A stretch of DNA of 64,000 bases from Tabrizicola aquatica (GTDB taxonomy: Bacteria > Pseudomonadota > Alphaproteobacteria > Rhodobacterales > Rhodobacteraceae). The translations under genes and the position numbers were made by a program. Positions 44,403 through 64,000 of this stretch are shown here, piece by piece (within the stretch, counting starts at the first letter, position 1; each line of letters starts with the position of its first letter). The stretch lies in the NCBI RefSeq assembly GCF_002900975.1, contig NZ_PJON01000001.1, forward strand, positions 868,001-932,000. The letters are read 5' to 3'. Below the pieces are notes generated by a model that made no database searches, was not told the DNA's origin, and saw only the letters and a program-made list of their open reading frames with translations.

Positions 44403-44412
44403 GGGTCGCGCG

Positions 44413-47761: not shown

Positions 47762-47810
47762 CAAATTCCTTAAGTAAGGAATTTGTCAAAATCCTTGCTT
47801 AAGGATTTTG
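47762..47810. repeat. Dual-palindrome intergenic repeat, copy 2
   Basis: Hairpin A has arms CAAATTCCTTA / TAAGGAATTTG (47762-47785). Hairpin B has arms CAAAATCCTT / AAGGATTTTG (47787-47810) with a 4-nt loop. Flanks are GGGGC on the left and GGTCCC on the right, as in the other copies. It separates the convergent RND and hyuB genes and contains the hyuB stop codon (47799-47801). Bidirectional terminator is the likely role. Confidence 0.82.
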
Positions 47811-49496
47811 GGTCCCGGTCGCGCCCTTCGGCCATAGGCGCGCCGCCTCCTCTGCCGTATAGCGACCAAGGCGCACATCTTCGGCCACCAGCGCGGGGTC
47901 GCGGGCAGCGGGCGGGCCATAGCCCCCGCCGCCCGGCGTGCGGACGCGGACCCGGTCGCCCGGTTCCAGAGCGATGTCCTGGGCCTTGGACAGATGTTCC
48001 GGCACCAGCGTCACCCCGCCCCGGATCACCTCGACCCGGTTCAGCGCGCCATCCTGGCCGCCAAGGGCGCCTTGCGGCCCGGTGCGGCCGTGGTCCATGA
48101 CGAAACTGGCCCGGGCCTGACCACGCAGCAGTTCGATCTCGTAATCCAGCCCGAAGCCGCCGCGGTGCTGCCCTGCCCCGCCCGAGCCTTCGTGCAGCGC
48201 GTAGCGACGGAAGAGGACGGGATAGGTCTGCTCCATGATCTCGACCGGGGGGGCCTTGGAAATGCCGATGGTAGAGCAGCCGTTGGCGATGCCGTCGCCG
48301 CCGGCAAAGCCGCCATAGCCGCCGCCGGAAATCTGGTACATCACATAGTCGCGCCCCTTTTCGGGGTCATGCCCGCCCAGCCCGAAGTTGCCGCTGGTGC
48401 CTGCGGGCGCGGCAGTCACCCGGTCCGGGATCGCCTGGACCAGTGCGGCAAACACCGCCTCGGCAATCCGCTGGCTGACCTCGGCCGCGCAGCCCGAAAC
48501 GGGGCGCGGGTATTGCGCGTCAAGGAAGGTGCCTGCGATGCCGGTCACGGTCAGCGGCTCGAACGCGCCGGCGCTGATCGGGACGTCAGGGAAGATGTGG
48601 CGCATCGCAAGGTAGACCGCCGACAGCGTCGTCGCGCGGACCGAGTTCATCGGGCCCATGCAGGGCGGCGAGGAGCCGGCGAAGTCGAAGGTCAGGCCGT
48701 CGCCCTTTGTCACGGTCAGGGCAATGGTCAGGGGCTGGTTCACCACGCCGTCGCTGTCGATGCTGGCCGTGGCGCGATAGGTGCCGTCGGGGATCAGGTC
48801 GATCATCGCGCGCATCTGTTTCGCTGCAAGCTGGCGCATCTGCGCAATCGCCTCGGTCACGGTGGCGTCGCCATAGCGGTCCAGAAGCGCCCCCAGCCGG
48901 TCCGCCCCGACCAGCAGGGCCGAGGCCTGGGCCTTCACATCCCCGATCCGCTGTTCCGACACCCGGATGTTCGAGCAGATGATCTGGTAGATTTCCTGGT
49001 CCAGAACCCCCGCCTTGAACAGCTTGACCGGCGGGATGCGCAGCCCTTCCTGTTCTGCGCTGATCGCGCTGGCCGAAAAGCCGCCGGGCACCGCGCCGCC
49101 GGTGTCGGGCCAATGGCCGGTGTTGGAGAGCCAGCAGAAGATCGCGCCATTCCGCCAGACCGGCATGGCAAAGCGCACATCCATCAGATGCGTGCCGCCC
49201 AGGTAGGGGTCGTTGACGATGTAGATGTCGCCGGGCGCGGGCGCGGCGGTAATGCCTTCCGCAATGCGTTCCAGGATCGTGCGGGTCGAGAACTGCATGA
49301 CGCCGACAAAGACCGGCAGACCTTTCGATCCTTGCGCGATCAGGCTGCCGTCGGCGGCCGAATAGATCCCATCGGATCGGTCGTCGGCCTCGGCGATCAC
49401 CGGGCTGAAGGCGGCACGCGAGAAGGTCAGGTCCATCTCGTCGCAGACCTGCTGCAAGCCGGCCTGGATGACGGCAAGGGTGACGGGGTCGATCAT
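47799..49496 (-). CDS. hyuB: Hydantoinase B/oxoprolinase-family subunit
   Basis: 565 residues of the HyuB family. Recognisable segments are PVTLAVIQAGLQQVCDEMDL, DIYIVNDPYLGGTHLMDVRF and the C-terminal GAGQHRGGFGLDYEIELLRG and GYGPPAA. With HyuA it forms ATP-dependent enzymes that open hydantoins, oxoproline or related cyclic amides. The true substrate is unknown; the neighbouring Mo-hydroxylase and reductase genes suggest a lactam derived from an N-heterocycle. The stop lies inside a hairpin repeat. Confidence 0.9.
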   Translation of the reverse strand: MIDPVTLAVIQAGLQQVCDEMDLTFSRAAFSPVIAEADDRSDGIYSAADGSLIAQGSKGLPVFVGVMQFSTRTILERIAEGITAAPAPGDIYIVNDPYLGGTHLMDVRFAMPVWRNGAIFCWLSNTGHWPDTGGAVPGGFSASAISAEQEGLRIPPVKLFKAGVLDQEIYQIICSNIRVSEQRIGDVKAQASALLVGADRLGALLDRYGDATVTEAIAQMRQLAAKQMRAMIDLIPDGTYRATASIDSDGVVNQPLTIALTVTKGDGLTFDFAGSSPPCMGPMNSVRATTLSAVYLAMRHIFPDVPISAGAFEPLTVTGIAGTFLDAQYPRPVSGCAAEVSQRIAEAVFAALVQAIPDRVTAAPAGTSGNFGLGGHDPEKGRDYVMYQISGGGYGGFAGGDGIANGCSTIGISKAPPVEIMEQTYPVLFRRYALHEGSGGAGQHRGGFGLDYEIELLRGQARASFVMDHGRTGPQGALGGQDGALNRVEVIRGGVTLVPEHLSKAQDIALEPGDRVRVRTPGGGGYGPPAARDPALVAEDVRLGRYTAEEAARLWPKGATGTQNP

Positions 49497-49591
49497 GCTG
49501 CCTCTCCGGGACCGCTCATCGCGGCGCTGGCGCTTGCTCTTCGCTGCGGCCCTGCGAGGAGCGACCGAAGGGACGCGAGGAGCCGTGTCAT
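49493..49591 (-). CDS. Possible 32-residue ORF bridging hyuA and hyuB
   Basis: ATG 49591 overlaps the hyuA stop (ATGA), and the ORF's TGA overlaps the hyuB ATG (ATGA), so it spans the 91-bp gap exactly. It would encode MTRLLASLRSLLAGP and an Ala/Ser/Gly-rich remainder. The low-complexity composition and arginine-rich reading suggest a translated GC-rich intergenic sequence. A coupling leader is more likely than a functional protein. Confidence 0.25.
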   Translation of the reverse strand: MTRLLASLRSLLAGPQRRASASAAMSGPGEAA

Positions 49592-51606
49592 GCGCCGACC
49601 TCTACGATCAGGTTGCCGTCTCCGTCCTGGGCCACGCGGGCGCCGGGGTCGATGACGATGGTGGAGTCCATCTGTTCGATGACGGCGGGGCCTTGCAGGG
49701 TGGCCTCGGCCGGCAGGTGGTCGCGCCAGTAGACCGGCGTATCGTGCCAGCCGTCGAACCAGACCCGGCGGATGGCGCTGGGGTCCGCGCTGGCTTTGCG
49801 GCCTGCGGGGTCGATCAGACGCGACAGGTCCAGGGCCGGCCGCTCACCAATCACCGAGCAGTTCAAGTTCACCAGGTTCGCCCGGATCGTCGGCAGGTCG
49901 ACGCGGAAGCGGGCGTGATAGGCGGCCTCGAACCGGCGCTGAAGGTCCTCGCGGCTGGGGGTGGGCGACGGCAAGGGGACGCGCAGAAGATGGGTCTGGC
50001 CGACGAACTGCATTTCGGCGGAATATTCGGCGCGGGTGGTGGTGAGGGCGATCTTCTCCAGCCCGATCAGGCGGCGGCCCTCGGCCTCTTGCTGGGCAAG
50101 GACCTGGTGGACCTCGGCCATGTCCACCGCGTCAAGCGGGCGGTTCAGGGTGCGGACGAAGTCGTGGCGCAGGTCGGCCACGACGCAGCCAAGCGCATTG
50201 GTGATGCCGGGGCGGGCGGGGATCAGGACCTTGGGGACGTTCAACTCACGCGCAAGGGCCACGGCATGCAGGGGTCCGGCCCCGCCAAAGGCAAAGAGCG
50301 CAAAGTCGCGCGGGTCGGCGCCCATCGAGATCGAGACCATGCGGATCGCGCCGGCCATATGGGTGTTGGCGATGCGGATCACCGCCTCGGCCGCCTGTTC
50401 CACCGACAGGCCGAGGGGGGCCGCGATCTGGTCCTGCATCGTCTGATGCGCGGCGGCGGCGGCCTGGCCGAAGCGACTGGCGGGGAGGCGACCGAGGATC
50501 AGGTTCGCATCCGAGATCGTGACCCTGGTGCCCCCGCGTCCATAGCAGATCGGGCCGGGGGTGGAGCCGGCGCTTTCCGGCCCGACCCGCAGCATCCCGC
50601 CCGCGTCGATCCGGGCGATGGAGCCGCCGCCCGCGCCAACGGTGCGCACGTCCACCATCGGGACATGGATCGGCATGGCATATTCGACCTCGATCTCGTT
50701 CGAGACCGGGGCCACGCCACCCCGGATCATCGCCACGTCCGTGCTGGTGCCGCCCATGTCATAGGTCAGAAGGTTCGGCATCCCCGCCCGCCGCCCGGTG
50801 GCCACGGCGGCCATCACGCCCGAGGCCGGGCCGGACATCACGGTCTTGACCGCCTCGCGCGCGACGTCCTTGGCCGCCACCATGCCGCCGTTGCCGTTCA
50901 TCACCAGAAGGTCGCGGGCATAGCCCTTGGCCGCCAGTTGCGCGGCCAGCCGGGCGACGTAGCGTTCCAGCAGTGGCTGGACCGAGGCGTTGACGGCCGC
51001 CGTCACCCCCCGCTCATACTCCCGCGATTCCGACAGAAGGGCATGGCCCAGGGTGATGTAGTCGTTGGGCCAGAGTTCGCGCGCCACTTCGGCCGCGCGC
51101 AATTCGTGCGCGGGGTTGGCATAGGCGTGCAGGAAGTGGATCACCAGCGCCTCACAGCCCTGGTCGCGCAGTTGGATGACGGCGGCGCGCAGGGCGTCCT
51201 CGTCCAGGGGCGTCAGGACGCGGCCGCGGGCGTCCATGCGCTCGGGCACCTCCAGGCGCAGGTCGCGGGGGATGACGGGGGTGAAGGAGCCGTGCATCCC
51301 GTAAGCCTGCGGCCGGGTGCGGCGGCCAAGTTCCAGCACGTCGCGAAAGCCCATCGTGGTGACAAGGCCGGTCTTGGAGAGCTGGCGTTCCAGCACCGCG
51401 TTGGTCGTGGTGGTGGTGCCATGGACGATAAGGTCGATCTGCGACAGTTCCGCCCCCGCCGCGTCGAAGGCGGCCAGCACGCCGCCGGCCTGGTTCGGCA
51501 GCGTGGTCGGCACCTTGGCCAGCCGCACCGCGCCGGTGGCCGGATCGAAGATCGCAAGGTCGGTAAAGGTGCCGCCCACGTCGACACCGGCGACAAGGCC
51601 CGTCAT
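49588..51606 (-). CDS. hyuA: Hydantoinase A/oxoprolinase-family subunit
   Basis: 672 residues from ATG 51606, with AGGGTGG upstream; GTG 51615 is an alternative. The N-terminal ATPase domain has VAGVDVGGTFTDLAIFD. The central part has TYDMGGTSTDVAMIRGG and GPICYGRGGTRVTISDANL, and GAGGGSIARIDAGG follows. These are typical of the actin-fold, ATP-binding HyuA family. It phosphorylates and opens a cyclic amide together with HyuB. Confidence 0.92.
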   Translation of the reverse strand: MTGLVAGVDVGGTFTDLAIFDPATGAVRLAKVPTTLPNQAGGVLAAFDAAGAELSQIDLIVHGTTTTTNAVLERQLSKTGLVTTMGFRDVLELGRRTRPQAYGMHGSFTPVIPRDLRLEVPERMDARGRVLTPLDEDALRAAVIQLRDQGCEALVIHFLHAYANPAHELRAAEVARELWPNDYITLGHALLSESREYERGVTAAVNASVQPLLERYVARLAAQLAAKGYARDLLVMNGNGGMVAAKDVAREAVKTVMSGPASGVMAAVATGRRAGMPNLLTYDMGGTSTDVAMIRGGVAPVSNEIEVEYAMPIHVPMVDVRTVGAGGGSIARIDAGGMLRVGPESAGSTPGPICYGRGGTRVTISDANLILGRLPASRFGQAAAAAHQTMQDQIAAPLGLSVEQAAEAVIRIANTHMAGAIRMVSISMGADPRDFALFAFGGAGPLHAVALARELNVPKVLIPARPGITNALGCVVADLRHDFVRTLNRPLDAVDMAEVHQVLAQQEAEGRRLIGLEKIALTTTRAEYSAEMQFVGQTHLLRVPLPSPTPSREDLQRRFEAAYHARFRVDLPTIRANLVNLNCSVIGERPALDLSRLIDPAGRKASADPSAIRRVWFDGWHDTPVYWRDHLPAEATLQGPAVIEQMDSTIVIDPGARVAQDGDGNLIVEVGA

Positions 51607-51668
51607 GCCCGCCACCCTGTCCCACGTCGAAGGATTCCGGCCGCCCGATGGTCAGCGCAAGGCGTCAT

Positions 51669-52367
51669 TCATACCCCCACATAGGTTCGGAACAGCGGGT
51701 CGCTGGCGGTCAGGCCCGCCACATCCCGTCCCGCTTCGATCCGGCCCGCGACCATGAAGGCCACGCGGTCGGCCAGTTTCAGCACCGCATCCACCCGTTG
51801 TTCCACCAGCACCACGGCCACGCCCTGCCCTTTCAGCGTCACCACCGCCTCCTGGATCAGTGCGATGATCGAGGGTTGCAGCCCCTCGGTCGGCTCGTCC
51901 AGAAGCAGCACCCTGGGGTCAAGGCAAAGCGCGCGGGCGATGGCAAGCATCTGCTGCTCGCCGCCCGAAAGCGTGCCCGAGACCTGCCCCAGCCGGTCGC
52001 GCAGCCGGGGAAACAGGGTCAGCACCTGCTCCAGCCGGGCGGGGTCGTTGCGGCGGACAAGGCCGCCGACGGCCAGGTTTTCCGCCACGGTCAGGGGACC
52101 GAACAAGCGGCGGCCCTGGGGCACATAGGCCAGGCCGCGCTTTGGCACCTCATGCGCGGGCAGGCCGTGCAGGGGCTGGCCGTCCAGCGTCACGGTCCCG
52201 GCGCTGGCAGAAACCAGGCCCATCAGCGCCTTGAGGAAGGTGGACTTGCCCACCCCGTTGCGGCCCATCAGGCAGGTGATCCGGCCCGGCTCGGCCCGGA
52301 AATCGACGCCGCGCAGCACGGTGACCGGGCCGTAGCCTGCGGTCAGGCCCTGAACCTCAAGCGCCAA
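51669..52367 (-). CDS. livF: Branched-chain-type ABC importer ATPase (LivF-like)
   Basis: 232 residues. Walker A is CLMGRNGVGKSTFLKALMG, the signature is GTLSGGEQQMLAIARALCLD and Walker B is LLLDEPTEGL. The LivF-specific AYVPQGRRLFGPLTVAENL is present. It forms the ATPase pair with LivG. It overlaps livG by 11 bp. The LIV family carries amino acids but also urea, short amides and aromatic acids, and here it probably serves the catabolic cluster. Confidence 0.92.
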   Translation of the reverse strand: MALEVQGLTAGYGPVTVLRGVDFRAEPGRITCLMGRNGVGKSTFLKALMGLVSASAGTVTLDGQPLHGLPAHEVPKRGLAYVPQGRRLFGPLTVAENLAVGGLVRRNDPARLEQVLTLFPRLRDRLGQVSGTLSGGEQQMLAIARALCLDPRVLLLDEPTEGLQPSIIALIQEAVVTLKGQGVAVVLVEQRVDAVLKLADRVAFMVAGRIEAGRDVAGLTASDPLFRTYVGV

Positions 52368-53061
52368 GGTAGGCCTCCTGCACGGCAGGATTGGCGCGGA
52401 CCTCGGCGGGCGTGCCGGTTGCCAGGACCCGGCCGAAGGTCAGGACGGTGATCCGGGTGGCAAGGTCCATCACCACCTCCATGTTGTGTTCGATCAGCAG
52501 GACAGTTGTCTGCGGCACCAGGCTGCGGACCAGGGTCTTGAACCCCTCGATCTCGCTGGCGGCAAGGCCCTGGGTCGGCTCGTCCAGGATCAGCAGCTTG
52601 GGGTTCAGCGCCAGGCCCATCGCCAGTTCCAGCAGGCGCTGGTGGCCGTAGGACAGCGTCTGCGCCTCTTGCTCCTCCAGCCCTTGCAGTCCGACACGGG
52701 CCAGCGCGGCGCGGGTGCGGGCGGCCAACTCGGCGGACCCCTGGGACTGCACCGCGAGCGCCACGTTGTCGAACACGGTCAGCCGCGGGAAGATCGAGGT
52801 GATCTGGAAGGTATAAGCAATCCCCTTGCGCACGCGGGCATGGGCGGGAAGCCGGGTGATGTCCTCGCCACCCAGAAGGATGGTCCCGGACTGGGCCGGC
52901 AGGCGCCCGGACAGAAGGCTGACAAAGGTCGTCTTGCCGGCCCCGTTCGGACCGATCAGGCCATGGATTTCGCCCGGTTGCAGGGCGAAATCCACCCCGT
53001 CCACCGCCCGCAAGCCGCCGAAGTGCCGGGTCAGGCCGCGCGTCTCGATCAGGACAGCCAT
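52357..53061 (-). CDS. livG: Branched-chain-type ABC importer ATPase (LivG-like)
   Basis: 234 residues from ATG 53061, with AAGGTGG 6 nt upstream. Walker A is LIGPNGAGKTTFVSLLSG. LSYGHQRLLELAMGLALNPK replaces the usual LSGGQ, as is normal for some LivG-type ATPases. Walker B is LLILDEPTQGLA. IAYTFQITSIFPRLTVFDNV is LivG-like. It overlaps the end of livM by 13 bp. Confidence 0.9.
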   Translation of the reverse strand: MAVLIETRGLTRHFGGLRAVDGVDFALQPGEIHGLIGPNGAGKTTFVSLLSGRLPAQSGTILLGGEDITRLPAHARVRKGIAYTFQITSIFPRLTVFDNVALAVQSQGSAELAARTRAALARVGLQGLEEQEAQTLSYGHQRLLELAMGLALNPKLLILDEPTQGLAASEIEGFKTLVRSLVPQTTVLLIEHNMEVVMDLATRITVLTFGRVLATGTPAEVRANPAVQEAYLGA

Positions 53062-53996
53062 CTGGCCCACCTTTCCCGGATCGTCCCAAGGATGCCTTTC
53101 GGCGCGAACAGGACCAGCACCACAAGCGCCGCGCCGACGATGAACTGGTGCGCGGTGGTGATGCCGGTCGCGGCCTCGATCAGGGCGAACATCAGCAGCG
53201 CGCCAAGGAAGGGGCCAAGCGTGGTGCCCGCGCCGCCCAGAAGGACGTAAAGCATCGGCAGGATCGAATACTGGATCGTGGCGAAACTGGCCCCGACATA
53301 GCCGAACAGGATCGCATAGGCCGCCCCCGCCGCCCCGGCATAAAGGCCCGAGATCGTCAGCGCCGCCAGTTTGACGGTGAAGGGGTTCATCCCCAGCATC
53401 CGGCTGCGCTCCTCATTCTCGCGCATCGCGACCATGGTCCGGCCGAAGGGTGAGCGGACAAGGGCCAGGCTGGCACAAAGGCCGATGGCAAAGATCGTCA
53501 GCGCCGCAAGAAAGCGGGGGGTGTCGGTGGACAGATCAAAGCCCATGAGCGTGCGGCTGGCGGCGGCGACGGCAAACCCGTCGTCCCCGCCGGTAATCGG
53601 GGCGAAGTAAAGCAGTGTCAGGAAGCCGGCCTGGGCGAACATCAGCGTCACGATCATGAAGCTGACCCCCGCCGTCCGCAGGGCGAGCAGGCCAAGGGCC
53701 GCAGCGACGAGGCCCCCGCCTGCGATCCCGGCGATGAAGGCGGGGCCGGCGGTCCAGCCCCAAAGCTGGGCCGGAAGTCCCGCCGCATACATCCCGGCGG
53801 CAAGCAGCAGCGCATGGCCCAGGCTGAGAAGGCCAGTGTAGCCGAAGGCCAGGTTGTAGCCCATCGCAAAGACCGCCAGGACCATGATCCGCGCAAGGTT
53901 GGTGGCGTGGTAGGGCGAGAGCAGGAACTGCGCCGCGAACAGGGCGGCGATGAGGGTAAGATGAAGCACCCAGACCTTCACGCCCCCACCTGTCAT
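53049..53996 (-). CDS. livM: Branched-chain-type ABC importer permease (LivM-like)
   Basis: 315 residues with about ten hydrophobic segments. Conserved AMGYNLAFGYTGLLSLGHAL near the N-terminus and RENEERSRMLGMNPFTVKLA in the cytoplasmic loop are diagnostic of LivM. Its ATG overlaps the livH stop (ATGA, 53993-53996). Confidence 0.92.
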   Translation of the reverse strand: MTGGGVKVWVLHLTLIAALFAAQFLLSPYHATNLARIMVLAVFAMGYNLAFGYTGLLSLGHALLLAAGMYAAGLPAQLWGWTAGPAFIAGIAGGGLVAAALGLLALRTAGVSFMIVTLMFAQAGFLTLLYFAPITGGDDGFAVAAASRTLMGFDLSTDTPRFLAALTIFAIGLCASLALVRSPFGRTMVAMRENEERSRMLGMNPFTVKLAALTISGLYAGAAGAAYAILFGYVGASFATIQYSILPMLYVLLGGAGTTLGPFLGALLMFALIEAATGITTAHQFIVGAALVVLVLFAPKGILGTIRERWARWLS

Positions 53997-54871
53997 GCCC
54001 TGGCTCCGAACAGGCCCTGCGGACGAAAGACCAGGACCATGGCGACCAGAAGCGTCGCCAGGATCTTGGCAAGGGTCGGCGTGAAGAACATGCTGATCAC
54101 GCCATCCGACAGGCCGATCACCAGCGCGGCGATCAGGGTTCCGCGCAATGACCCAAGGCCGCCGATGATGACGACAATGAAGGACAAAAGCAGGGGGTCA
54201 TGGCCCATCAGGTATTGGGCCTGCTGGATCGGGACGATCAACACTCCGGCCAATGCGGCCAGCCCCGCGCCAAGCGCGAAGGTGCCCATGTAGACCCGGT
54301 CCACGTTGACCCCGAAGGCCTGGGCGGTGGACCGGTCCACCTGCGTCGCCCGCATGATGAGGCCCGCCCTGGTGCGGGTCATGAACAGCCACAGGCCAAG
54401 CAGCACCAGCTCGGCGGCAAGGACCACGAACAGCTTGTAGCCGGAATAGCCGAACCAGGGCAGCTGGATGCGCCACTCGAAGGGGGCGGTCACGGGATAG
54501 GCATTGGGGCCATAAAGCGACAGCGCCGCCTGCTGCAGGATGTAGAGAAGGCCGATGGTGGCGACGATGGTCGCCTCGGGGTCATAGTTCAGCCGCTTCA
54601 GGATGAGGCCATCGGCGGCAGCAGCCAGGGCTGCGACCAGAAGCGGCGCGATGAGGACGGCCGCCAGGAAGGCCAGCGCCGGGGGGCCGGGGATCATGGT
54701 GGTGACGGCCCAGGCCAGGACCGCGCCCAGCATGTAGAACTCGCCATGTGCCACGTTGACGACGCGCATGACACCGAACACCAGCGACAGGCCCGCCGCC
54801 GCCAGCGCAAGAACTGCGGCGGTCACCAGGCCCTCCATCAGGGCAAGAAGCAGGAAGGGTCCGAAGGCCAT
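53993..54871 (-). CDS. livH: Branched-chain-type ABC importer permease (LivH-like)
   Basis: 292 residues from ATG 54871 (MAFGPFLLLALMEGLVTAAV). Membrane segments throughout. VMRVVNVAHGEFYMLGAVLA and IMRATQVDRSTAQAFGVNVD are LivH hallmarks. It forms the channel with LivM. It lies 83 bp after the binding-protein gene. Confidence 0.92.
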   Translation of the reverse strand: MAFGPFLLLALMEGLVTAAVLALAAAGLSLVFGVMRVVNVAHGEFYMLGAVLAWAVTTMIPGPPALAFLAAVLIAPLLVAALAAAADGLILKRLNYDPEATIVATIGLLYILQQAALSLYGPNAYPVTAPFEWRIQLPWFGYSGYKLFVVLAAELVLLGLWLFMTRTRAGLIMRATQVDRSTAQAFGVNVDRVYMGTFALGAGLAALAGVLIVPIQQAQYLMGHDPLLLSFIVVIIGGLGSLRGTLIAALVIGLSDGVISMFFTPTLAKILATLLVAMVLVFRPQGLFGARA

Positions 54872-54954
54872 GCAGGTCCTGTGACTGGGTTGGATGGGTG
54901 CTGCGCCCACCCGATGCGGGGGAGTAGGGTGGGCGATCCGCCCACCCTGCGGTT

Positions 54955-56229: not shown

Positions 56230-56309
56230 GTCCGTCTCTCCACTGTTGCGGCCTCTCAGCGGGCCCTTGATGTCATTGGCGGGCCAAGGCCCGGATTTGT
56301 CCAGCCTTT

Positions 56310-57710
56310 TCAGCCAGACCTGGCAGTCGACAGCAGCCACAGGCCAAGCACGGTATAACCCACCATCAGCACGGTCATCGGCAGATGCGCCACCGGCCGC
56401 GCGCCCTGCCCCGCAAGTTTCAGCCCCAGAAGCACAGCCAGAAGATGCGCGCCAAGGATGGCGACGAATTGCAGGCCGTAGATCACAGGCATGACCCGGG
56501 TATCGGTCAGGAAGCCGAACGAGACATAGAAGGGCGGCAGGCCCAGCCAGCTGTCCCCGGTCAGGAACGGATCGTTCAGCGCGGCCAGGGTATATTGCCC
56601 GGCGGTCAGCAACATCACCAGATAATGCGCCGCGTGATAGCCCGCCGCGATGGCCAGGAACGACAGCATCACCGGCCCGGTGGCAAAGCCGCCGCCGACC
56701 TTGCGGCCCAGCGTGATCGCGCCCAGGATCAGCGCCAGCGTCAGCACCCAGATCGCCAAAAGGCCCCCGGTGTTCTGCCACATCACCGCGCTGCGCCCCG
56801 TCGGCTCTAACGGGTTCTCGCCGATCAGCCCCTGCCACCAGAAGGTCTCGGCCAGACCGTCGAAGGTCAGCGCGGCCAGGGCAAGGCTGACAAAGACCAC
56901 GGCCGAAGGGGTCAGGGGCGGCATTGCAAGCACCTGCGTGCCGGGCCAGCCGCGCATCAGGCGGGAGCGCGCGCCCGCAGTTTCGTGCCAAAGCGGCGAG
57001 ACCTTGGCGATGAAGCCGAACAGGACGGTCAGGAACTCACCCTGGTCCAGCCAATCCTCGCCCTCGGCCACCGCCAGCAGGAAGATGACGGCCCAATAGG
57101 CCAGCGCGACCTGGGCCAGGACGGCGGGGTCGTCGGGGTAAAGCGAGACCATCTGGAACCAGACGAAACCGGCATAGCCCGCGACCGCCGGCCAATGGCC
57201 AAGGCGGGCAAGGCCGACGCTGCCGGAGCGGCCCAGAAGCGTGCGGGCGATGCGCACGGGGCCGGTCCAAGGGTTGAGCGGCCGCCAAAGGTTGCCCAGC
57301 AGCATCGAGCCAAGCGGGACAGCGATCCAGACACCAGTCCAGAACACCAGCGTCATCAGGTTATGCATCGGGTCACGCTCGCCAAAGAGGCCGACAAGGA
57401 CCAGGGCGAGGAAAGCCATAAACGACAGGTAAGAGGTAAGCCCCACCGGCAGCAGCACCCGCCGCTCCCACACAAGGCGCGGGGCCATGACCGGCAGCCG
57501 GTGGGCGACGGCGCCCATGACTGCGGTCAGCGCCACCGTCAGCGCGGCGGCGGTGATGTAGTGGCCCGTCGGCAGCGTCAGGATGACCGAGGGCGGCAAG
57601 GCGCAGGCAATGGCAAGGCCGGGCGTCAGCAGGACGGCCAGACCGCCCGCCCCCAAAGTTTTCGAAAACTTTGGGCAAAATCCTTCAGAGGATTTTGGGT
57701 CGCGCGTCAC
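56310..57710 (-). CDS. Polytopic membrane protein of unknown function
   Basis: About 466 residues if translation starts at GTG 57710, which overlaps the DUF1185 stop (GTGA) and has GGGGAGG upstream. A TTG at 57656 is an alternative. About ten to twelve hydrophobic helices follow, with a conserved-looking loop LLGNLWRPLNPWTGPVRIAR. With the GTG start, residues 3-22 (RDPKSSEGFCPKFSKTLGAG) are simply the translation of a two-hairpin repeat. It sits between the DUF1185 and binding-protein genes, so a membrane role in the same pathway is possible. I do not recognise the family with confidence; it may be related to the large membrane proteins sometimes labelled fenitrothion hydrolase. Confidence 0.7.
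   Translation of the reverse strand: MTRDPKSSEGFCPKFSKTLGAGGLAVLLTPGLAIACALPPSVILTLPTGHYITAAALTVALTAVMGAVAHRLPVMAPRLVWERRVLLPVGLTSYLSFMAFLALVLVGLFGERDPMHNLMTLVFWTGVWIAVPLGSMLLGNLWRPLNPWTGPVRIARTLLGRSGSVGLARLGHWPAVAGYAGFVWFQMVSLYPDDPAVLAQVALAYWAVIFLLAVAEGEDWLDQGEFLTVLFGFIAKVSPLWHETAGARSRLMRGWPGTQVLAMPPLTPSAVVFVSLALAALTFDGLAETFWWQGLIGENPLEPTGRSAVMWQNTGGLLAIWVLTLALILGAITLGRKVGGGFATGPVMLSFLAIAAGYHAAHYLVMLLTAGQYTLAALNDPFLTGDSWLGLPPFYVSFGFLTDTRVMPVIYGLQFVAILGAHLLAVLLGLKLAGQGARPVAHLPMTVLMVGYTVLGLWLLSTARSG
57652..57697. repeat. Dual-palindrome intergenic repeat, copy 3
   Basis: Hairpin A is a 24-bp perfect palindrome (57652-57675; half CCCAAAGTTTTC). Hairpin B has arms CAAAATCCT / AGGATTTTG (57676-57697) with a 4-nt loop. 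GGGTC lies on the right as in the other copies. Unlike copies 1 and 2 it lies between two same-strand genes, just after the DUF1185 stop, and falls inside the start region of the membrane-protein frame. Confidence 0.82.
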
Positions 57711-58294
57711 CTTAGCCCGTCCTCCCCCTTGACCTGGTGGACTTCCAGCCCGCCCATCCGGCTGTGGACCCTGCCGCCGCGCGCCATGCCAAGCGCGAAC
57801 AGGACCTCGGTCGCGCGGGGCCCATCGGCGCAGGCCAGCGTGATCGCATCGAAGCGCGAGCGGACATAGGCCGCGTTCAGGTGGCCCAAGGGCAGGTCCA
57901 GCGTCGCGCCCATGCCGCCGACCTTCATCACCGAGGGCACGATGGCCCGGCATTCCCCCAGCCGTTCCCGCATCCCATAGCCGCCCGCGACATGCCAAAG
58001 CGCGCCGTGTTCGCTTTCCCCGCCCTCGCCCACGATGGCACCCTTGCCATAGGCGTCGATCCCCTCGCGCCCGCCAAGGGCGGCGACAAGGCGGTCGGTC
58101 AGGTCCAGGGCGAGCGGTTTAAGATCCTCCATCGCCGCTTGCAGGTCGGCCTCATAGCGGCCGGCAAAGGGATTCTGGCAGATCGCATAGATCGCGCCCC
58201 GGACCGGGGGGGGCTGGACCAGGGGGCCGCCCTCATGCCGGATCTCCTCAAGCTGCACCACGATCTTACGCACTGTAAAATCAGCCACTTGCAT
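57707..58294 (-). CDS. DUF1185 'amino acid synthesis' family protein
   Basis: 195 residues. Start VRKIVVQLEEIRHEGGPLVQ and later GKGAIVGEGGESEHGALWHV and VPSVMKVGGMGATLDLPLGH mark DUF1185. The family name is historical and no enzyme activity is established; structures belong to a chorismate-mutase-like fold group that includes RidA-type and cyclic-amide-hydrolase-like domains (from memory). Its start overlaps the UPF0280 gene by 14 bp, so it is translationally coupled into the cluster. Confidence 0.88.
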   Translation of the reverse strand: MQVADFTVRKIVVQLEEIRHEGGPLVQPPPVRGAIYAICQNPFAGRYEADLQAAMEDLKPLALDLTDRLVAALGGREGIDAYGKGAIVGEGGESEHGALWHVAGGYGMRERLGECRAIVPSVMKVGGMGATLDLPLGHLNAAYVRSRFDAITLACADGPRATEVLFALGMARGGRVHSRMGGLEVHQVKGEDGLR

Positions 58295-59135
58295 CCCCCT
58301 GTTCCAGCGCCAGAACGCCTGTCACCCGACGCTCACCTTGCAGGAAAAGCGCCGCACCTTCAATCAATCCACGCGCGCAGAAACCCTGGGCCGCGCGCAG
58401 GCCCGTCTCCAGCGCCCGCGCCCGGTCGGCGTCGGTCAGGGGGGGCACCGCCACCGTGACCAGCCGGTCGCCAAGGTCGCTGTCGCACTGCACCGCGCAG
58501 GCCGGGCGGCGCTGGATGCCGGAATGGTCCAGGTCCACCGCATTCGCGATCATCGTTGCCGCCGCATCCGCCATCGCCGCGCTCCGTGCCACGACCGTCA
58601 CCGCATCCGCGATGCCAAGCGAGAAGCTGCGCCCGCGCCAGCCCGAGGTCGCGATGCCCCGCACCGGGTCTGCGGCGCGGACCGTCACCAGGTCCACCCC
58701 GCCCGAGGCGGCCAGGGCGCAGGTCAACTCCTCGCCCTGCGCCAGCCAAAGCGCGATGTCGCCGCCGTTGTTGGCATAGGCGCGGCTGATGCCGGGGCCG
58801 GACAGGGCGGCCAGCACCTCTTCGGCCACCGCACCGGCGACGGCGGCCATCGGGGTGATGAAGGCGGGGCGGAAGGGAGCGACGGCTTCGGCCATGCGGC
58901 GGGCGATGGGGCCGTTCACCCTGGCCCCAGGCAGACGAAGGGCGGGAAGTTCGGCGACCAGTTCTTCCAGCACGGTCGAGAACCGGGCCGCGGCGCGGGC
59001 ATGGGCAGCGCGGATGGCCAGGGGCACGCCGAAAGCCTCGGCGATAATGTCGATGGGGCCGTGCTGCAGATGCAGCCGCCCGCCCGGCAGCAGGGCCGCG
59101 ACGGCACCGCTGGGCTGGGGGGCGGTCAGGGCCAT
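58281..59135 (-). CDS. UPF0280 (ApbE-like) family protein
   Basis: 284 residues from ATG 59135. Diagnostic segments are RVNGPIARRMAEAVAPFRPA, FITPMAAVAGAVAEEVLAAL, ISRAYANNGGDIALWLAQGE, SGWRGRSFSLGIADAVTVVA and AAATMIANAVDLDH. UPF0280 proteins are related to ApbE flavin transferases. The gene overlaps the upstream reductase gene by 10 bp and the downstream DUF1185 gene by 14 bp. A role in attaching flavin to the neighbouring reductase is a reasonable but untested idea. Confidence 0.87.
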   Translation of the reverse strand: MALTAPQPSGAVAALLPGGRLHLQHGPIDIIAEAFGVPLAIRAAHARAAARFSTVLEELVAELPALRLPGARVNGPIARRMAEAVAPFRPAFITPMAAVAGAVAEEVLAALSGPGISRAYANNGGDIALWLAQGEELTCALAASGGVDLVTVRAADPVRGIATSGWRGRSFSLGIADAVTVVARSAAMADAAATMIANAVDLDHSGIQRRPACAVQCDSDLGDRLVTVAVPPLTDADRARALETGLRAAQGFCARGLIEGAALFLQGERRVTGVLALEQGDASG

Positions 59136-60556
59136 GGCGCGACCCGTGCTGCGGTGGGGTATTCCCCGCCTTCGGCCATGGACTGGTCCAGCGTCCGGAT
59201 GCTGTCGGCATGGCCGCCCATCGCCAGATAGTCGGCGCGCGGCAGGGTGAACTCCAGCGGGGCGACAAGGGCCGGAGTGGGAACATAGCCGAAAGCGCCC
59301 TTCGGCAGGCGGGTGACGTCGACCATGAAGGTGATCCCGCCACCCGGCCAGACGAAGGTCTCGGCCCCGCCGCTGGTCAGCCGCGTGACGCCCCCCTGCA
59401 CTGACTGCGTCAGGCGCACCGGATTCTTCGCCACCCCCGCCCGCAGGCTGCCGCCCGCGCCGCCGACGAACAGCACCGTGCAAAGCGAAGGTTCGCAATT
59501 CTCGTCAATAAGTTCGACGGATTTCTTCAGGCTTTCTGGCAAGTCCTGCGGCACCGGGCGCAGGGCATCGTCCAGGACGTAATAGGCATATTGCTCACCC
59601 GTGGTGGACACCATCAACAGCCGCAACCCCGGCCGCGCGCCCTTCTTCGGGTTCCAGTCGCCCAGGATCTCCAGCGGGTCGGTCAGCCGCGTGCCGCCCC
59701 AGCCTTGCCCGGGTTCCGAGACCTTGAAATAGCGCCCGGGGGTGGAGCGGTGGCCCTTGATCCGGATGCCCGAGGGTGGCCAGCCGATCACCTTGCCGGC
59801 CTGATGTTCGCTGACGACGCCGGTGATGTGGTCATCGACCACCACCACCTCGTCCACCAGGCCCTGCCACTGGACGGCAAACATGCCGATGGTGGCCGAG
59901 CCGCAGCCGACGCGCATCCGCCTTTCGCGCACCCCGTCCACGATGGGCGCCTGCCCGGCCTGCACCACAAGGGTCGAGCCGCCGTCGATCGCCAGTTCCA
60001 CCGCCTCGCCGTTGCACAAGGCCAGCATCGCGGCGCAGGTGACGCGCCCCTCGGCCTTGGTGCCGCCGGTCAGGTGGTGGACACCGCCAAGGCTGAGCAT
60101 CTGCGACCCGTATTCAGCGGTCGTCACATGGCCGATGGGTTCGCCCTGGACGCGCACCACGGCGCCTTCGGGGCCAAGGAACCGGTCGGTGTCGATCTTC
60201 ACCTTGACCCCGCAGTAGGAGAAGATCGCCTCGGTCACCACCGTGACCATGTCGGCGCCCTGAACCTGCGAGGCGACGATGAAGGGCGCGGGCTTGTAGT
60301 CCGGGTAGGTCGTGCCCGAACCGATGCCGGTGACGAAGGCATCGGCCGGGACCGGCGTGCCGTCCCAGTCGCGGGCGGCGAAGGGGACGATGCGGCCCCC
60401 GGCCTCGACGCTGTGCGAGAGCATGACCACAGGATCGGTCCGCACGATCCGACCGGCCTCATTGGCATAGCGGTCGCAGGCGCCGGTCTGGCCGGGGGCG
60501 ATGTAGCACATCACCGGGCAGGCATCGCAGCGGATCTTTTCCGGGGTGTCGGTCAT
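59126..60556 (-). CDS. hnr: 6-hydroxynicotinate reductase homologue
   Basis: 476 residues from ATG 60556 (MTDTPEKIRCDACPVMCYIA). The N-terminal cysteines in CDACPVMCYIAPGQTGACDR are ferredoxin-like Fe-S ligands. Later segments ADMVTVVTEAIFSYCGVKVK, VGCGSATIGMFAVQWQG and ETFVWPGGGITFMVDVTRLP match 6-hydroxynicotinate reductases as I know them from Eubacterium nicotinate fermentation, where the enzyme reduces the pyridone ring. In this aerobic or phototrophic host the substrate may be another hydroxylated heterocycle. It is tightly coupled to the UPF0280 gene. Confidence 0.85.
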   Translation of the reverse strand: MTDTPEKIRCDACPVMCYIAPGQTGACDRYANEAGRIVRTDPVVMLSHSVEAGGRIVPFAARDWDGTPVPADAFVTGIGSGTTYPDYKPAPFIVASQVQGADMVTVVTEAIFSYCGVKVKIDTDRFLGPEGAVVRVQGEPIGHVTTAEYGSQMLSLGGVHHLTGGTKAEGRVTCAAMLALCNGEAVELAIDGGSTLVVQAGQAPIVDGVRERRMRVGCGSATIGMFAVQWQGLVDEVVVVDDHITGVVSEHQAGKVIGWPPSGIRIKGHRSTPGRYFKVSEPGQGWGGTRLTDPLEILGDWNPKKGARPGLRLLMVSTTGEQYAYYVLDDALRPVPQDLPESLKKSVELIDENCEPSLCTVLFVGGAGGSLRAGVAKNPVRLTQSVQGGVTRLTSGGAETFVWPGGGITFMVDVTRLPKGAFGYVPTPALVAPLEFTLPRADYLAMGGHADSIRTLDQSMAEGGEYPTAARVAPWP

Positions 60557-60633
60557 GGGTGGCACCCGCCGGGGGCCAGCCCCCGGACCCCCGGGATATC
60601 TATCGACAGAAAATGGCCGGGGCGCAGAGTCAT
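60553..60633 (-). other. 26-codon ORF bridging the Mo-hydroxylase and hnr genes
   Basis: ATG 60633 overlaps the hydroxylase stop (ATGA) and the ORF's TGA overlaps the hnr ATG (ATGA). The middle contains a GC-rich potential hairpin (GGGGGC and GCCCCC arms near 60575-60590). The predicted peptide is Gly/Pro-rich and looks like translated intergenic repeat. I do not call it a protein gene; a coupling or hairpin element is more likely. Confidence 0.2.
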
Positions 60634-63296
60634 GCCTGCCCCCGCGTGCTGGCCAGGACCCGGTGCGGCAGCGCGGGGACGCGGGTGATCTCGGCCCCGG
60701 TCGCATGGCGGATCGCGTTCAGGATCGCCGGCGCGGTGGGGATCAGGACGTGTTCGCCCAGGCCCTTGGCGCCGAAGGGGCCTTCGGGGTCGGGAACCTC
60801 GATCAACAGGCTTTCGATCGGGGGCACGTCGCTGGTGGTGGGGATCAGGTAGTCGTGCAGGTTCTCGGTCCGGCCGGGCAGGTATTCCTCCATCAGCGCG
60901 AGGCCAATGCCCTGGGCAATGCCGCCCTCGATCTGGCCGCGGGCGAGCATCGGGTTGATCGCGCGGCCCACGTCATGCGCGGCGGTGATCTTCAGGAGTT
61001 TGACCGTGCCAAGGGCCGCGTCCACCAGAAGCTCCACCATCTGGGCGCCGTAGCCATAAAGCGCATAGGGCGCGCCCTGGCCATCGGCGTCGAGGGGCGA
61101 GGTCGGGGGGTCATAGGTCGCCTCGGCGGCAAGGGCGTGGCCCTGGGCATTGGTGGGCAGGCGGGCAAGGTCGATCCGGGCGGTCGTGCCACGGTCGCGG
61201 ACGATGAGTGTGGGGCCGTCCAGCGCCAGCGTGGCGCCCTGCCCCGCATTGGCGTGGCGCAGGATTTCGGCGCGCAGGGCCTCGGCCGCGGCCTTGGCGG
61301 CGCGGCCGGTCACGAAGGTCTGCCGGCTGGCTGAGGTCTTGCCGGCGTCCGGGGTCAGCGCGGTGTCGGGGCCGATCAGGCGGAAGGCGGCAAGCGGCAG
61401 ACCCAGCGCCTCGGCCGCGATCTGGGCGATGACGGTGTTCGAGCCCTGGCCGATGTCGGTCGCGCCCTGATGCAGGACCACTTCACCTTCGGGCGAAACA
61501 CCGATGCGGATGGTCGAGGGGTTCGGCAGCGCCGTGTTGCCGCAGCCGTACCAGCACGAGGCGATGCCGACGCCCCGGCCCTTTTGGCCCCGCGCGTCGG
61601 CAAGGGCGCGGGTCCAGTGCGGGTGCAAGGCGGTCAGGCAGTCGTGGATGCCCACCGCGCGCAGGGTCTGGCCGGTGGCCGAGGCGTCGCCGTCGCGCAG
61701 CGCGTTGATCAGCCGGAACTCCAGCCGGTCGATGCCCGCCTTGTCGGCCAGCCGGTCGTACAGCGTTTCCTGCCACAGCGCGCCTTGCGGCACGCCAAAG
61801 CCACGGAACGCGCCCGAAACCGGCCCGTGGGTATGGATCGCCCGCGCCCGGGCAGTGATCGCAGGCGTCAGGTACGGCCCCGAAACATGCACCGGCACCC
61901 GGTTCGCCACGGTCGGGCCCCAGCTGGAATAGGCGCCGGTGTTGAAGCGGCCCTCGAACTCCACCCCCGTGATCCGGCCTTGCGCGTCACAGCCGATCCG
62001 GCCCCGCATCTCGGCCGGGTGGCGCTTGGTGGTCGAGGTCATGCTGTCCTGGCGGCTGTAGACCATGCGGCAGGGGCGGCCGGTCTTGAGGGTGACCAGG
62101 CCGATCAGCGGTTGCAGCGAGATATCCAGCTTGGAGCCAAACCCCCCGCCCACGGCGGAAGGGATGATGCGGACCCGGTCCAGCGGCAGCCCCAGGATCG
62201 CGGCGGTATCCTCGCGGTCCATGGCCGGGGCCTGGGTGCAGGCGCGGATCACCAGGGTCTCGCCTTCTGCCCAGGCGCTGCCGGCTTCGGGTTCGATATA
62301 GGCGTGTTCGACGAAGGCGGTGGTCATCTCGCCTTCGACGACATGGGCGCTGGCGGCAAGGGCGGCGGCGGCATCGCCCTTTTGCACCCGGCCTTCGATC
62401 AGGCGGTTGCCGGGGCGGGTCGGGTGGATGAGGTCGCCCACCTCGGCCTCGGCCGGGGTGGTGAGGGCGGGAAGCGGGGTCCAGGTGATCGGAAAGCCGG
62501 TCAGGTCGGGGTCGGTGCCCGGCTCGAACGCCACAAGGGCCGCGCATTCGCCCCGGAACCGGGCGGGCGAGGCGGCGATGGCGGGCTGGTCGGCGAAGGG
62601 GGGGATCACCGAAAACGCGTTGCGTCCGGGGATGTCGGCGGCGGTCAGGATCGTAACCACGCCGGGACGGGCGCGGAACGGGCCAAGGTCACCGATCTGG
62701 AACGCGGCATGGGGATGGGGCGAGCGGACGGCCTTGACCACCAGCGCGCCGACCGGCCATTCGTCCGCGCCGAAACTGTCGCCCGCCACCTTGGCCGCGC
62801 CGTCCAGCCGCAGGACGCTGGCCCCCACCCCGTCTGTCGGCGCAGCGGGCAACGGCCCACCGGCCGCGACCACGGCGGCGATGATGCTGCGATAGCCGGT
62901 GCAGCGGCACAAGACGCCCCCAAGCGCCTGTTCCACCTCCTCGGCCGTGGGCTGGGCGGTGCGGGCCAGAAGCTCGGCTGCGGTCAAAAGCATGCCGGGC
63001 GTGCAGATCCCGCATTGCGCGGCACCATGGGCGTGGAAACTGGCGCAGAGGCGGGAAAGCTCGGCGGTCTCGCCCTCGATGGTCGTGACGGCGCGGCCTT
63101 CGACCCGTGCGACGGGCGTCAGGCAGGCGCAGACCGCCGCCCCGTCCAGAAGCACCGTGCAGGCACCGCAATCACCGGCGTCGCAGCCAACCTTGGTGCC
63201 GACCATGCCCAGCCGTTCGCGCAGCGTCTCGGACAGGCGTTCGGTCGGGGGGGCGTCGGTGCCGACGGGGGCGCCGTTCAGGGTAAAGGCGATCAT
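60630..63296 (-). CDS. Molybdenum hydroxylase, fused 2Fe-2S and Mo-cofactor subunits
   Basis: 888 residues. Residues 1-150 are the two [2Fe-2S] domains: VGCDAGDCGACTVLLDG and CGICTPGMLLTAAEL with GGVLCRCTGYRSI. From about 160 the molybdopterin part follows: VGGGFGSKLDISLQPLIGLV, GPVSGAFRGFGVPQGALWQE, and the catalytic glutamate region FGAKGLGEHVLIPTAPAILN. This is the xanthine dehydrogenase/nicotinate hydroxylase family in a fused small-large arrangement. It hydroxylates N-heteroaromatic rings next to nitrogen, using water. It overlaps the FAD-subunit gene by 4 bp. Confidence 0.93.
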   Translation of the reverse strand: MIAFTLNGAPVGTDAPPTERLSETLRERLGMVGTKVGCDAGDCGACTVLLDGAAVCACLTPVARVEGRAVTTIEGETAELSRLCASFHAHGAAQCGICTPGMLLTAAELLARTAQPTAEEVEQALGGVLCRCTGYRSIIAAVVAAGGPLPAAPTDGVGASVLRLDGAAKVAGDSFGADEWPVGALVVKAVRSPHPHAAFQIGDLGPFRARPGVVTILTAADIPGRNAFSVIPPFADQPAIAASPARFRGECAALVAFEPGTDPDLTGFPITWTPLPALTTPAEAEVGDLIHPTRPGNRLIEGRVQKGDAAAALAASAHVVEGEMTTAFVEHAYIEPEAGSAWAEGETLVIRACTQAPAMDREDTAAILGLPLDRVRIIPSAVGGGFGSKLDISLQPLIGLVTLKTGRPCRMVYSRQDSMTSTTKRHPAEMRGRIGCDAQGRITGVEFEGRFNTGAYSSWGPTVANRVPVHVSGPYLTPAITARARAIHTHGPVSGAFRGFGVPQGALWQETLYDRLADKAGIDRLEFRLINALRDGDASATGQTLRAVGIHDCLTALHPHWTRALADARGQKGRGVGIASCWYGCGNTALPNPSTIRIGVSPEGEVVLHQGATDIGQGSNTVIAQIAAEALGLPLAAFRLIGPDTALTPDAGKTSASRQTFVTGRAAKAAAEALRAEILRHANAGQGATLALDGPTLIVRDRGTTARIDLARLPTNAQGHALAAEATYDPPTSPLDADGQGAPYALYGYGAQMVELLVDAALGTVKLLKITAAHDVGRAINPMLARGQIEGGIAQGIGLALMEEYLPGRTENLHDYLIPTTSDVPPIESLLIEVPDPEGPFGAKGLGEHVLIPTAPAILNAIRHATGAEITRVPALPHRVLASTRGQA

Positions 63297-64000
63297 GCCA
63301 GGGCCTCGCTGACCGCGCGGCGGACCAGTTCGGCGGCGGCCTGGCGCCGATAGGTGGCGGTGGCGCGCACGTCGTCGATGGGGGCAAGGGCAGCGGCGAC
63401 CGATTCGGCGGGGATGCGGTCGGCGGCACCGTCCCGGGGGCCGACAAGCGCGGCCTCGACCCGCGGCAGGCGCTGCGCGACAGGGGAGCAGGCCCCGACC
63501 GCCACGGCGGCGTGGGTGATGCGGTCGCCGTCCATGTCCAGACGCGCGGCGACCATGGCGATCGAGATTACCAGATGCGCCCGCGTGCCCAGCTTGACAA
63601 AGGCCGACCGGCCCGAAAGCGCCGCTTGCGGGATCAGGATTGCGGTCAGCACCTCATCCGGGCCAAGCGCAGTGCGGCGGGGGCCAAGAAGGAAGCGGTC
63701 CAGCAACAGGGTCCGGGTTCCGGCGGGCGAGGCGATCTCCACACTTGCGTCCAGCGCCAGGAGCGGCGGCACACCGTCCGCGGCGGGTGAGGCGTTGCAC
63801 AGGTTGCCGCCAATCGTGCCCGCGTTCTGCACCTGACGCCCGCCGACCTGCAGCGCGGCCTGCTGCAGGGCACGGGCCGCAGGGGGCAGGTCGGCCGTGG
63901 CAATCGCGGTCCAGCTGGTCGCCGCGCCGATCCGCAGCCCCTGCCCCTGCCCGGCGCGAATGCCCGCAAGTTCGTCCAGCCCACCCAGATCCAGCACGTC
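63293..64000 (-). CDS. Molybdenum hydroxylase FAD-binding (medium) subunit, partial
   Basis: The 5' end lies beyond the window; 235 residues are seen of an expected 270-290. The FAD-binding signature AGTIGGNLCNASPAADGVPP follows VGGRQVQNAGT, and the C-terminal CO-dehydrogenase-flavoprotein domain includes SAFVKLGTRAHLVISIAMVA. It accepts electrons from the 2Fe-2S/Mo protein encoded directly downstream (ATGA overlap). Codon phase is intact to the window edge. Confidence 0.92.
   Translation of the reverse strand, partial: DVLDLGGLDELAGIRAGQGQGLRIGAATSWTAIATADLPPAARALQQAALQVGGRQVQNAGTIGGNLCNASPAADGVPPLLALDASVEIASPAGTRTLLLDRFLLGPRRTALGPDEVLTAILIPQAALSGRSAFVKLGTRAHLVISIAMVAARLDMDGDRITHAAVAVGACSPVAQRLPRVEAALVGPRDGAADRIPAESVAAALAPIDDVRATATYRRQAAAELVRRAVSEALA

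Follow-up and report, generated by a model that had tools for sequence, protein, structure and literature searches.

A nicotinate-type gene cluster of Tabrizicola aquatica in which a hydantoinase-like enzyme probably takes the place of enamidase

Which enzyme opens the reduced ring of nicotinate where a 6-hydroxynicotinate reductase (Hnr) is encoded and an enamidase is not found? The question is raised by a gene cluster of the alphaproteobacterium Tabrizicola aquatica (assembly GCF_002900975.1, contig NZ_PJON01000001.1), of which positions 868,001-932,000 were analyzed; this whole stretch of 64,000 nucleotides is called the window, and coordinates given below are window positions. A single minus-strand run of genes at 47799-64225, extending slightly beyond the window, holds every family that an initial annotation of the same DNA had grouped into one cluster: a molybdenum (Mo) hydroxylase, an Hnr homologue, the UPF0280 and DUF1185 proteins, a membrane protein, a Liv-type importer and the HyuA/HyuB pair. 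Overlaps of 4-14 bases join Hnr to UPF0280, UPF0280 to DUF1185 and the two hydroxylase genes to each other. The cluster probably serves nicotinate breakdown through Hnr and 1,4,5,6-tetrahydro-6-oxonicotinate (THON), with HyuAB as an unrelated substitute for the metal-dependent enamidase.

Much of such a pathway is already on record. A cluster of hydroxylase, Hnr and transporter genes accompanied by two conserved proteins of unknown function was published as a nicotinate cluster of Azorhizobium and Bradyrhizobiaceae; strain SG-6C, which carries the Hnr cluster, uses nicotinate for growth, 6-hydroxynicotinate appearing transiently, and a route via THON and glutarate is favored by the authors (PMC3511419). 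In Eubacterium barkeri, a bifunctional enamidase opens THON (PMC9304392). Since both the cluster and the role of the enamidase are in print, there is no novelty in the central part of the finding, and the initial annotation went too far in calling the system as a whole undescribed. The part that looks new is the ring opener: no earlier report linking a hydantoinase to nicotinate was found in the literature searched, most subscription journals lying outside it.

The gene neighborhood is conserved well beyond T. aquatica. Hnr was searched for in 385 alphaproteobacterial genomes sampled across the class, the T. aquatica genome included, and is present in 68 of them; it also occurs on 26 plasmid records. 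Two sets of neighborhoods were compared, loci cut by contig ends being counted in both: the best 80 named loci, with flanks up to 10 kb, out of at least 593 stretches with Hnr relatives, and the loci of the 67 other Hnr-bearing genomes of the class sample, which may share genomes with the first set. In the 80 named loci, UPF0280 is found 78 times (77 directly downstream of Hnr), the Mo subunit 77 times, DUF1185 71 times, the flavin adenine dinucleotide (FAD) subunit 69 times, LivH and MarR 56 times each and HyuA 31 times. The 67 class loci contain UPF0280 in 66 cases (64 directly downstream), the Mo subunit in 61, the FAD subunit in 56, DUF1185 in 43, MarR in 37, LivH in 29 and HyuA in 21; in both sets the Mo and FAD counts stand for any match of at least 100 bits, a few of them paralogues. 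This grouping is far beyond chance, and the co-occurrence outside this strain on which the initial annotation had made its proposal depend proves widespread in both sets. The membrane protein adjoins the substrate-binding protein even where the importer is placed differently relative to Hnr. Hnr is lacking from all seven listed genomes of the same family, which marks the cluster as an accessory trait of that group.

An indication of how the ring is opened comes from the distribution of two unrelated hydrolases. Among the reading frames left unmatched in the 67 class loci, an amidohydrolase recurs in 15 and matches the E. barkeri enamidase (2vun) at 3.3e-109; it is the only likely THON opener recognized among the listed groups of unmatched frames, a listing that leaves out the weaker groups. 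This amidohydrolase and HyuA were used as queries against the same 385 genomes, with orthologue cut-offs of at least 60% identity for the enamidase and at least 54% for HyuA. Enamidase is found in 29 of the 68 Hnr genomes and HyuA in 37; none has both, and the two with neither (G226 and G313) are assemblies 70% and 86% complete. Identities span 68-100% for the enamidase in the 29 genomes, with next matches at 43% or less, and 54-100% for HyuA in the 37. Without Hnr, enamidase occurs in one genome of the class sample and HyuA in six. The 147 loci of the two sets repeat this pattern (enamidase in 15, HyuA in 52, both in none), the type of cluster being alike. On a quick Hnr tree, where 20 of 65 inner branches have support below 80, the opener state changes at least eight times, and one family (f104) mixes openers, with enamidase in three genomes and HyuA in one. 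A sample of 200 genomes from the phylum contains Hnr in 15, of which ten are new: two of these have enamidase only, six HyuA only and two both. A Comamonadaceae plasmid (Betaproteobacteria) carries together Hnr, UPF0280, two DUF1185 genes, a NicB-type hydroxylase and an enamidase of 68% identity. In the T. aquatica genome, no enamidase was found at E values up to 1e-60. The near-exclusive distribution in Hnr genomes supports what the initial annotation had suggested, namely that HyuAB would stand in for the enamidase. DUF1185, whose fold is chorismate-mutase-like (PMC2954203), was considered as an enamine hydrolase required only with HyuAB; its presence in 15 of 15 enamidase loci, along with 41 of 52 HyuA loci, rules this out.

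The solved relatives of HyuA are N-methylhydantoinase and 5-oxoprolinase. Its motifs DVGGTFTD at residue 12, DMGGT at 286 and GSTPGP at 350 resemble those named for CapA, and the adenosine triphosphate (ATP) motifs and metal residues, placed by reading, are present in HyuA/HyuB. The equivalog cut-offs of the caprolactamase CapAB are not reached by either subunit (Table 1), and these models are still the nearest in NCBIfam. For CapAB, the proposed mechanism is phosphorylation in the A subunit followed by metal-assisted hydrolysis in the B subunit, alternatives being considered in the same account (PMC8453981), and OplAB, a related ATP-dependent enzyme, opens the six-membered valerolactam (PMC11033972). 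Because THON is a six-membered lactam, replacement of the enamidase by HyuAB is chemically plausible, and THON would most likely be opened by HyuAB with ATP in place of enamidase.

The identity of the substrate is suggested by the regulator and by neighboring genes. The initial annotation saw no pathway-specific regulator, which is correct within the window; just past its end lies a divergent MarR gene. The encoded protein matches BpsR (6pcp) at 6.4e-23, ranking second to 2nnn. The 6-hydroxynicotinate ligands of BpsR are Tyr15, His23, Arg26 and His32 (PMC6837509); at these positions the T. aquatica protein has Tyr, Tyr, Arg and His, so that three of four are kept and His23 is replaced by Tyr. 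MarR matches occur in 93 of the 147 loci; all 93 keep the Tyr and the Arg, 75 have His32 and 16 have His23, whether the locus carries enamidase or HyuA. Another neighbor, assigned to its family by reading, is a nicotinamidase-like gene; it occurs in 34 of the 147 loci, with enamidase nearby in one of the 34 and HyuA in 16, and one stretch of a Neorhizobium plasmid holds annotated nicAB, fpr, importer, MarR, hnr, UPF0280, DUF1185, hyuA and hyuB genes. On account of the MarR pocket residues, the nicotinamidase-like neighbors and this plasmid, nicotinate is the likely substrate, a point that the initial annotation had left open. A strict palindrome scan of 23 MarR-FAD gaps gave nothing in most of them and nothing in the window. 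A TTTG-gap-CAAA repeat, a pattern chosen after two matches had been seen, occurs in 9 of 26 such gaps (e.g. L057, L091 and L056), whereas shuffled sequences average 0.4; since it is absent from the window, no MarR operator is claimed.

Hnr is a ferredoxin-dependent reductase. Relatives of ferredoxin-NADP reductase occur in 21 of the 147 loci, and genes read as 2-oxoacid:ferredoxin oxidoreductase-like, a possible electron source in aerobes, in 6 of the 67 class loci (L138, L151, L172, L173, L178 and L180); both kinds of neighbor would fit the ferredoxin dependence of Hnr. Near Hnr in 12 of the 67 class loci lies a protein read as a Rieske-type oxygenase (e.g. L162:12049-13257), which might demethylate N-methylnicotinate.

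UPF0280 accompanies Hnr so closely that the two share an identical set of 68 among the 385 genomes. It is missing from 2 of the 80 named loci, namely L059, which a contig end truncates, and L074, and was found in all six named genomes searched (those of L058, L059, L071, L074, L081 and L107), as a cut piece in the genome of L059 and outside the 21 kb locus in that of L074. The AlphaFold model of UPF0280 has a predicted local distance difference test (pLDDT) score of 92, and Foldseek matches it to 2o34, a solved UPF0280 (1.9e-10), to FmnB (4.9e-5) and to ApbE (4.9e-4). All 13 matches at E values of 0.001 or less are UPF0280 or flavin-transferase/flavin-trafficking structures; among them, the template modeling (TM) scores by query length against ApbE/FmnB are 0.36-0.42, a partial similarity, and ApbE is not among the sequence matches of UPF0280. 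Hnr itself has no Pfam match above cut-off, no NCBIfam match and no solved relative at E values up to 0.3; its model has a pLDDT of 70.5 and gives no fold match at E values up to 0.001. Cys10, 13, 17, 27, 115 and 218 are invariant in 148 of 148 Hnr sequences, and Cys174 (146 of 148), Cys181 (137 of 148) and Cys354 (146 of 146) are nearly or fully so, a set as expected of an Fe-S enzyme. The Hnr of E. barkeri was reportedly found by Alhapel et al. in 2006 to carry covalently bound flavin together with Fe-S clusters. Given the same 68 genomes, the ApbE/FmnB-like predicted fold and this covalent flavin, UPF0280 may be the flavinylation factor of Hnr. A flavinylation site at Gly-Ser-Ala-Thr (residues 219-222) of Hnr was dropped, the Thr being Ala in some relatives. 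The literature searched, with most subscription journals outside it, yielded no earlier report on UPF0280 or on ApbE-type enzymes with 6-hydroxynicotinate.

UPF0280 could equally well be a chaperone, an electron-transfer partner or a second catalytic subunit of Hnr and not a flavin transferase. The target motif of ApbE, D-x-x-[ST]-G-A-[ST] (PMC12052999), occurs in none of the 148 Hnr sequences. The likeness of UPF0280 to ApbE and FmnB is partial, and one UPF0280 structure comes from Desulfovibrio. The Foldseek matches, all of them UPF0280 or flavin-related structures, and the covalent flavin reported for the E. barkeri enzyme argue for a transferase.

A number of observations weigh against THON opening by HyuAB, and two other explanations of its place in the cluster draw on some of them. 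The gene search scored just the three or four best first-look candidates per genome; the Fisher test of the exclusion (p = 3.4e-17) ignores relatedness; and the HyuA cut-off was set after the data had been seen, 45% producing one genome with both openers and 57% one more with neither. The exclusion is not absolute, as 2 of the 10 further Hnr genomes from the phylum carry both openers, the enamidase lying at a site of its own with DUF1185 and MarR matches and without Hnr. Of the 37 HyuA genomes, 15 have no HyuA within the stretch (up to 20 kb) around Hnr, some of these stretches being contig-cut, and Hnr was identified via a relative that is named by annotation. HyuA of at least 54% identity occurs in six Hnr-negative genomes, and the substrate can therefore not be read from HyuAB identity alone: in four of these, from one family, HyuA (58-60% identity) is nested within the Hnr-linked clade, and three of the four loci (L184-L187) have HyuAB next to a different Mo hydroxylase, whereas the two others (G011 and G095) lie outside that clade. 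The HyuAB subfamily can, to judge by these sequences, serve other pathways; L184-L187 possibly represent another heterocycle pathway, one in which the ring is not reduced. It is unlikely that the substrate is another N-heterocycle (for example a different hydroxypyridine carboxylate, or an N-methylated nicotinate such as trigonelline supplied through a demethylase), to which Hnr, UPF0280 and HyuAB would have been adapted, the corresponding reduced lactam being opened by HyuAB. The HyuAB relatives beside a different Mo hydroxylase would suit it, as would the varying neighbors (Rieske-type in 12 of 67 loci, an old yellow enzyme (OYE)-type reductase in 11 of 80) and the Tyr at the His23 position of the T. 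aquatica MarR. Set against these are the pocket Tyr and Arg kept in 93 of 93 MarR matches with both cluster types, the nicotinamidase-like and nicAB neighbors, and a comparison with the window proteins, to which the Hnr of enamidase clusters is about as similar as that of HyuA clusters, the same being true of the Mo hydroxylase in most loci. Quite improbable is an arrangement in which HyuAB acts further down the pathway or off to its side, for example on the lactam of a later intermediate, while an unrecognized hydrolase opens THON. The 15 genomes without HyuA in the stretch around Hnr and the two with both openers speak for such a role; the near-exclusive relation to enamidase with its repeated swaps speaks against it, and in HyuA loci the listed groups of unmatched frames offer no further recurrent candidate for lactam opening. 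Two kinds of hydrolase were recognized in these groups by reading, the nicotinamidase and, in three loci of one family, an M20-type amidohydrolase.

In the preferred scheme of nicotinate breakdown, the Liv-type importer and the membrane protein would take up nicotinate, the two-gene Mo hydroxylase would convert it to 6-hydroxynicotinate and Hnr would reduce the latter to THON. HyuA would phosphorylate the THON lactam at the cost of ATP and HyuB would hydrolyze it to 2-(aminomethylene)glutarate; loss of ammonia from this product would then yield 2-formylglutarate. MarR would sense 6-hydroxynicotinate, and UPF0280 would make Hnr ready for use, the simplest possibility being that it attaches or supplies the flavin. 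The order of import, hydroxylation, ring reduction and ATP-dependent opening is that of the initial annotation and finds support here. Gene content, conservation, the near exclusion of HyuA and enamidase, the matching distribution of Hnr and UPF0280 and the ApbE-like predicted fold were computed; from these we infer all reactions, the substrate and the role of UPF0280. A bolder version, which would give a function to a widespread uncharacterized family, is tentative and in our view somewhat doubtful: a THON-specific HyuAB would have displaced the enamidase on many occasions, with UPF0280 as a dedicated cytosolic flavinylation enzyme of ApbE fold that recognizes a new target motif and is essential to Hnr.

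Table 1. Genes of the T. aquatica cluster and the adjoining regulator, in window positions; start codons of genes past the window end were placed by reading.
Gene product	Position	Strand	Basis
FAD subunit, Mo hydroxylase	63293..64000, on to ~64141-64225 past window	-	FAD_binding_5 1.3e-40, CO_deh_flav_C 2.2e-14
Fused [2Fe-2S]/molybdopterin subunit, probable nicotinate 6-hydroxylase	60630..63296	-	MoCoBD_1, MoCoBD_2, Fer2, Fer2_2
Hnr, 6-hydroxynicotinate reductase homologue	59126..60556	-	82.7% identity to plasmid protein so annotated
UPF0280, ApbE/FmnB-like predicted fold	58281..59135	-	NF003322 362.6 bits, cut-off 290
DUF1185 (AA_synth), function unknown	57707..58294	-	PF06684 8.7e-62
Membrane protein, unknown family	56310..57575	-	no Pfam or NCBIfam match
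ATP-binding cassette (ABC) importer substrate-binding protein	54955..56229	-	Peripla_BP_6 3.1e-51
LivH-type permease	53993..54910	-	UrtB/LivH models, below cut-off
LivM-type permease	53049..53996	-	UrtC/LivM models, below cut-off
LivG-type ATPase	52357..53070	-	open reading frame and synteny; Fuscovulum relative annotated ABC ATP-binding protein
LivF-type ATPase	51669..52367	-	open reading frame and synteny; Fuscovulum relative annotated ABC ATP-binding protein
HyuA, ATP-binding subunit of proposed lactamase	49588..51615	-	caprolactamase alpha model 491.4 bits, cut-off 1000
HyuB, metal-dependent ring-opening subunit of proposed lactamase	47799..49496	-	caprolactamase beta model 315 bits, cut-off 1000
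MarR gene, divergent	64227-64643, past window end		~85 bases beyond likely FAD-subunit start

The Mo/Fe-S subunit does not reach the cut-off of any of its 20 listed NCBIfam models. Four PF01968 (HyuA-type) matches occur in the T. aquatica genome, and this run accounts for one. Beyond the MarR gene lie a TetR gene and then the OYE-type reductase (65397-67421 in window-equivalent positions), whose best solved relative is NCR (6qkg, 1e-64) and which could feed or extend the pathway; an OYE match of at least 100 bits defines the 11 named loci mentioned above. On the other side, an efflux-type gene pair read from open reading frame translations (43206-47739, plus strand) converges with the cluster.

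If the proposed scheme is true, the opening of the reduced nicotinate ring would be settled for a large share of the Hnr-bearing Alphaproteobacteria, and two unrelated chemistries, metal-dependent hydrolysis and ATP-driven lactam opening, would have been swapped within one vitamin pathway. It would make the function of UPF0280 and of its proposed covalent-flavin partner directly testable, and provide names for genes now annotated as hydantoinases or proteins of unknown function.

Among known systems, the nicotinate cluster of Azorhizobium caulinodans, Bradyrhizobium, Rhodopseudomonas and SG-6C shares with that of T. aquatica the route through 6-hydroxynicotinate and THON (PMC3511419). The window cluster has HyuAB and a two-gene hydroxylase with an FAD subunit, whereas one sampled locus (L124) has enamidase and a NicB-type hydroxylase. 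Nicotinate fermentation by E. barkeri likewise employs an Mo hydroxylase and then a reductase, followed downstream by methyleneglutarate enzymes. In contrast, the T. aquatica genome gave no enamidase within the E value limit stated above and has HyuAB in its place, and no gene of the run was identified as one of those methyleneglutarate enzymes in Pfam and NCBIfam scans. The predicted fold of UPF0280 matches ApbE and FmnB; it differs in showing no obvious membrane anchor by eye and, with respect to ApbE, in a proposed target, Hnr, without the ApbE motif. BpsR, the 6-hydroxynicotinate-responsive MarR protein of Bordetella, shares all but one of its ligand residues with the T. aquatica regulator, whose best solved relative, 2nnn, was deposited just as a probable transcriptional regulator. 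Finally, CapAB, OplAB and N-methylhydantoinase are two-subunit ATP-dependent cyclic-amide hydrolases, as HyuAB appears to be; compared with CapAB, the HyuAB of the window lies far below the caprolactamase cut-offs and is tied to Hnr.

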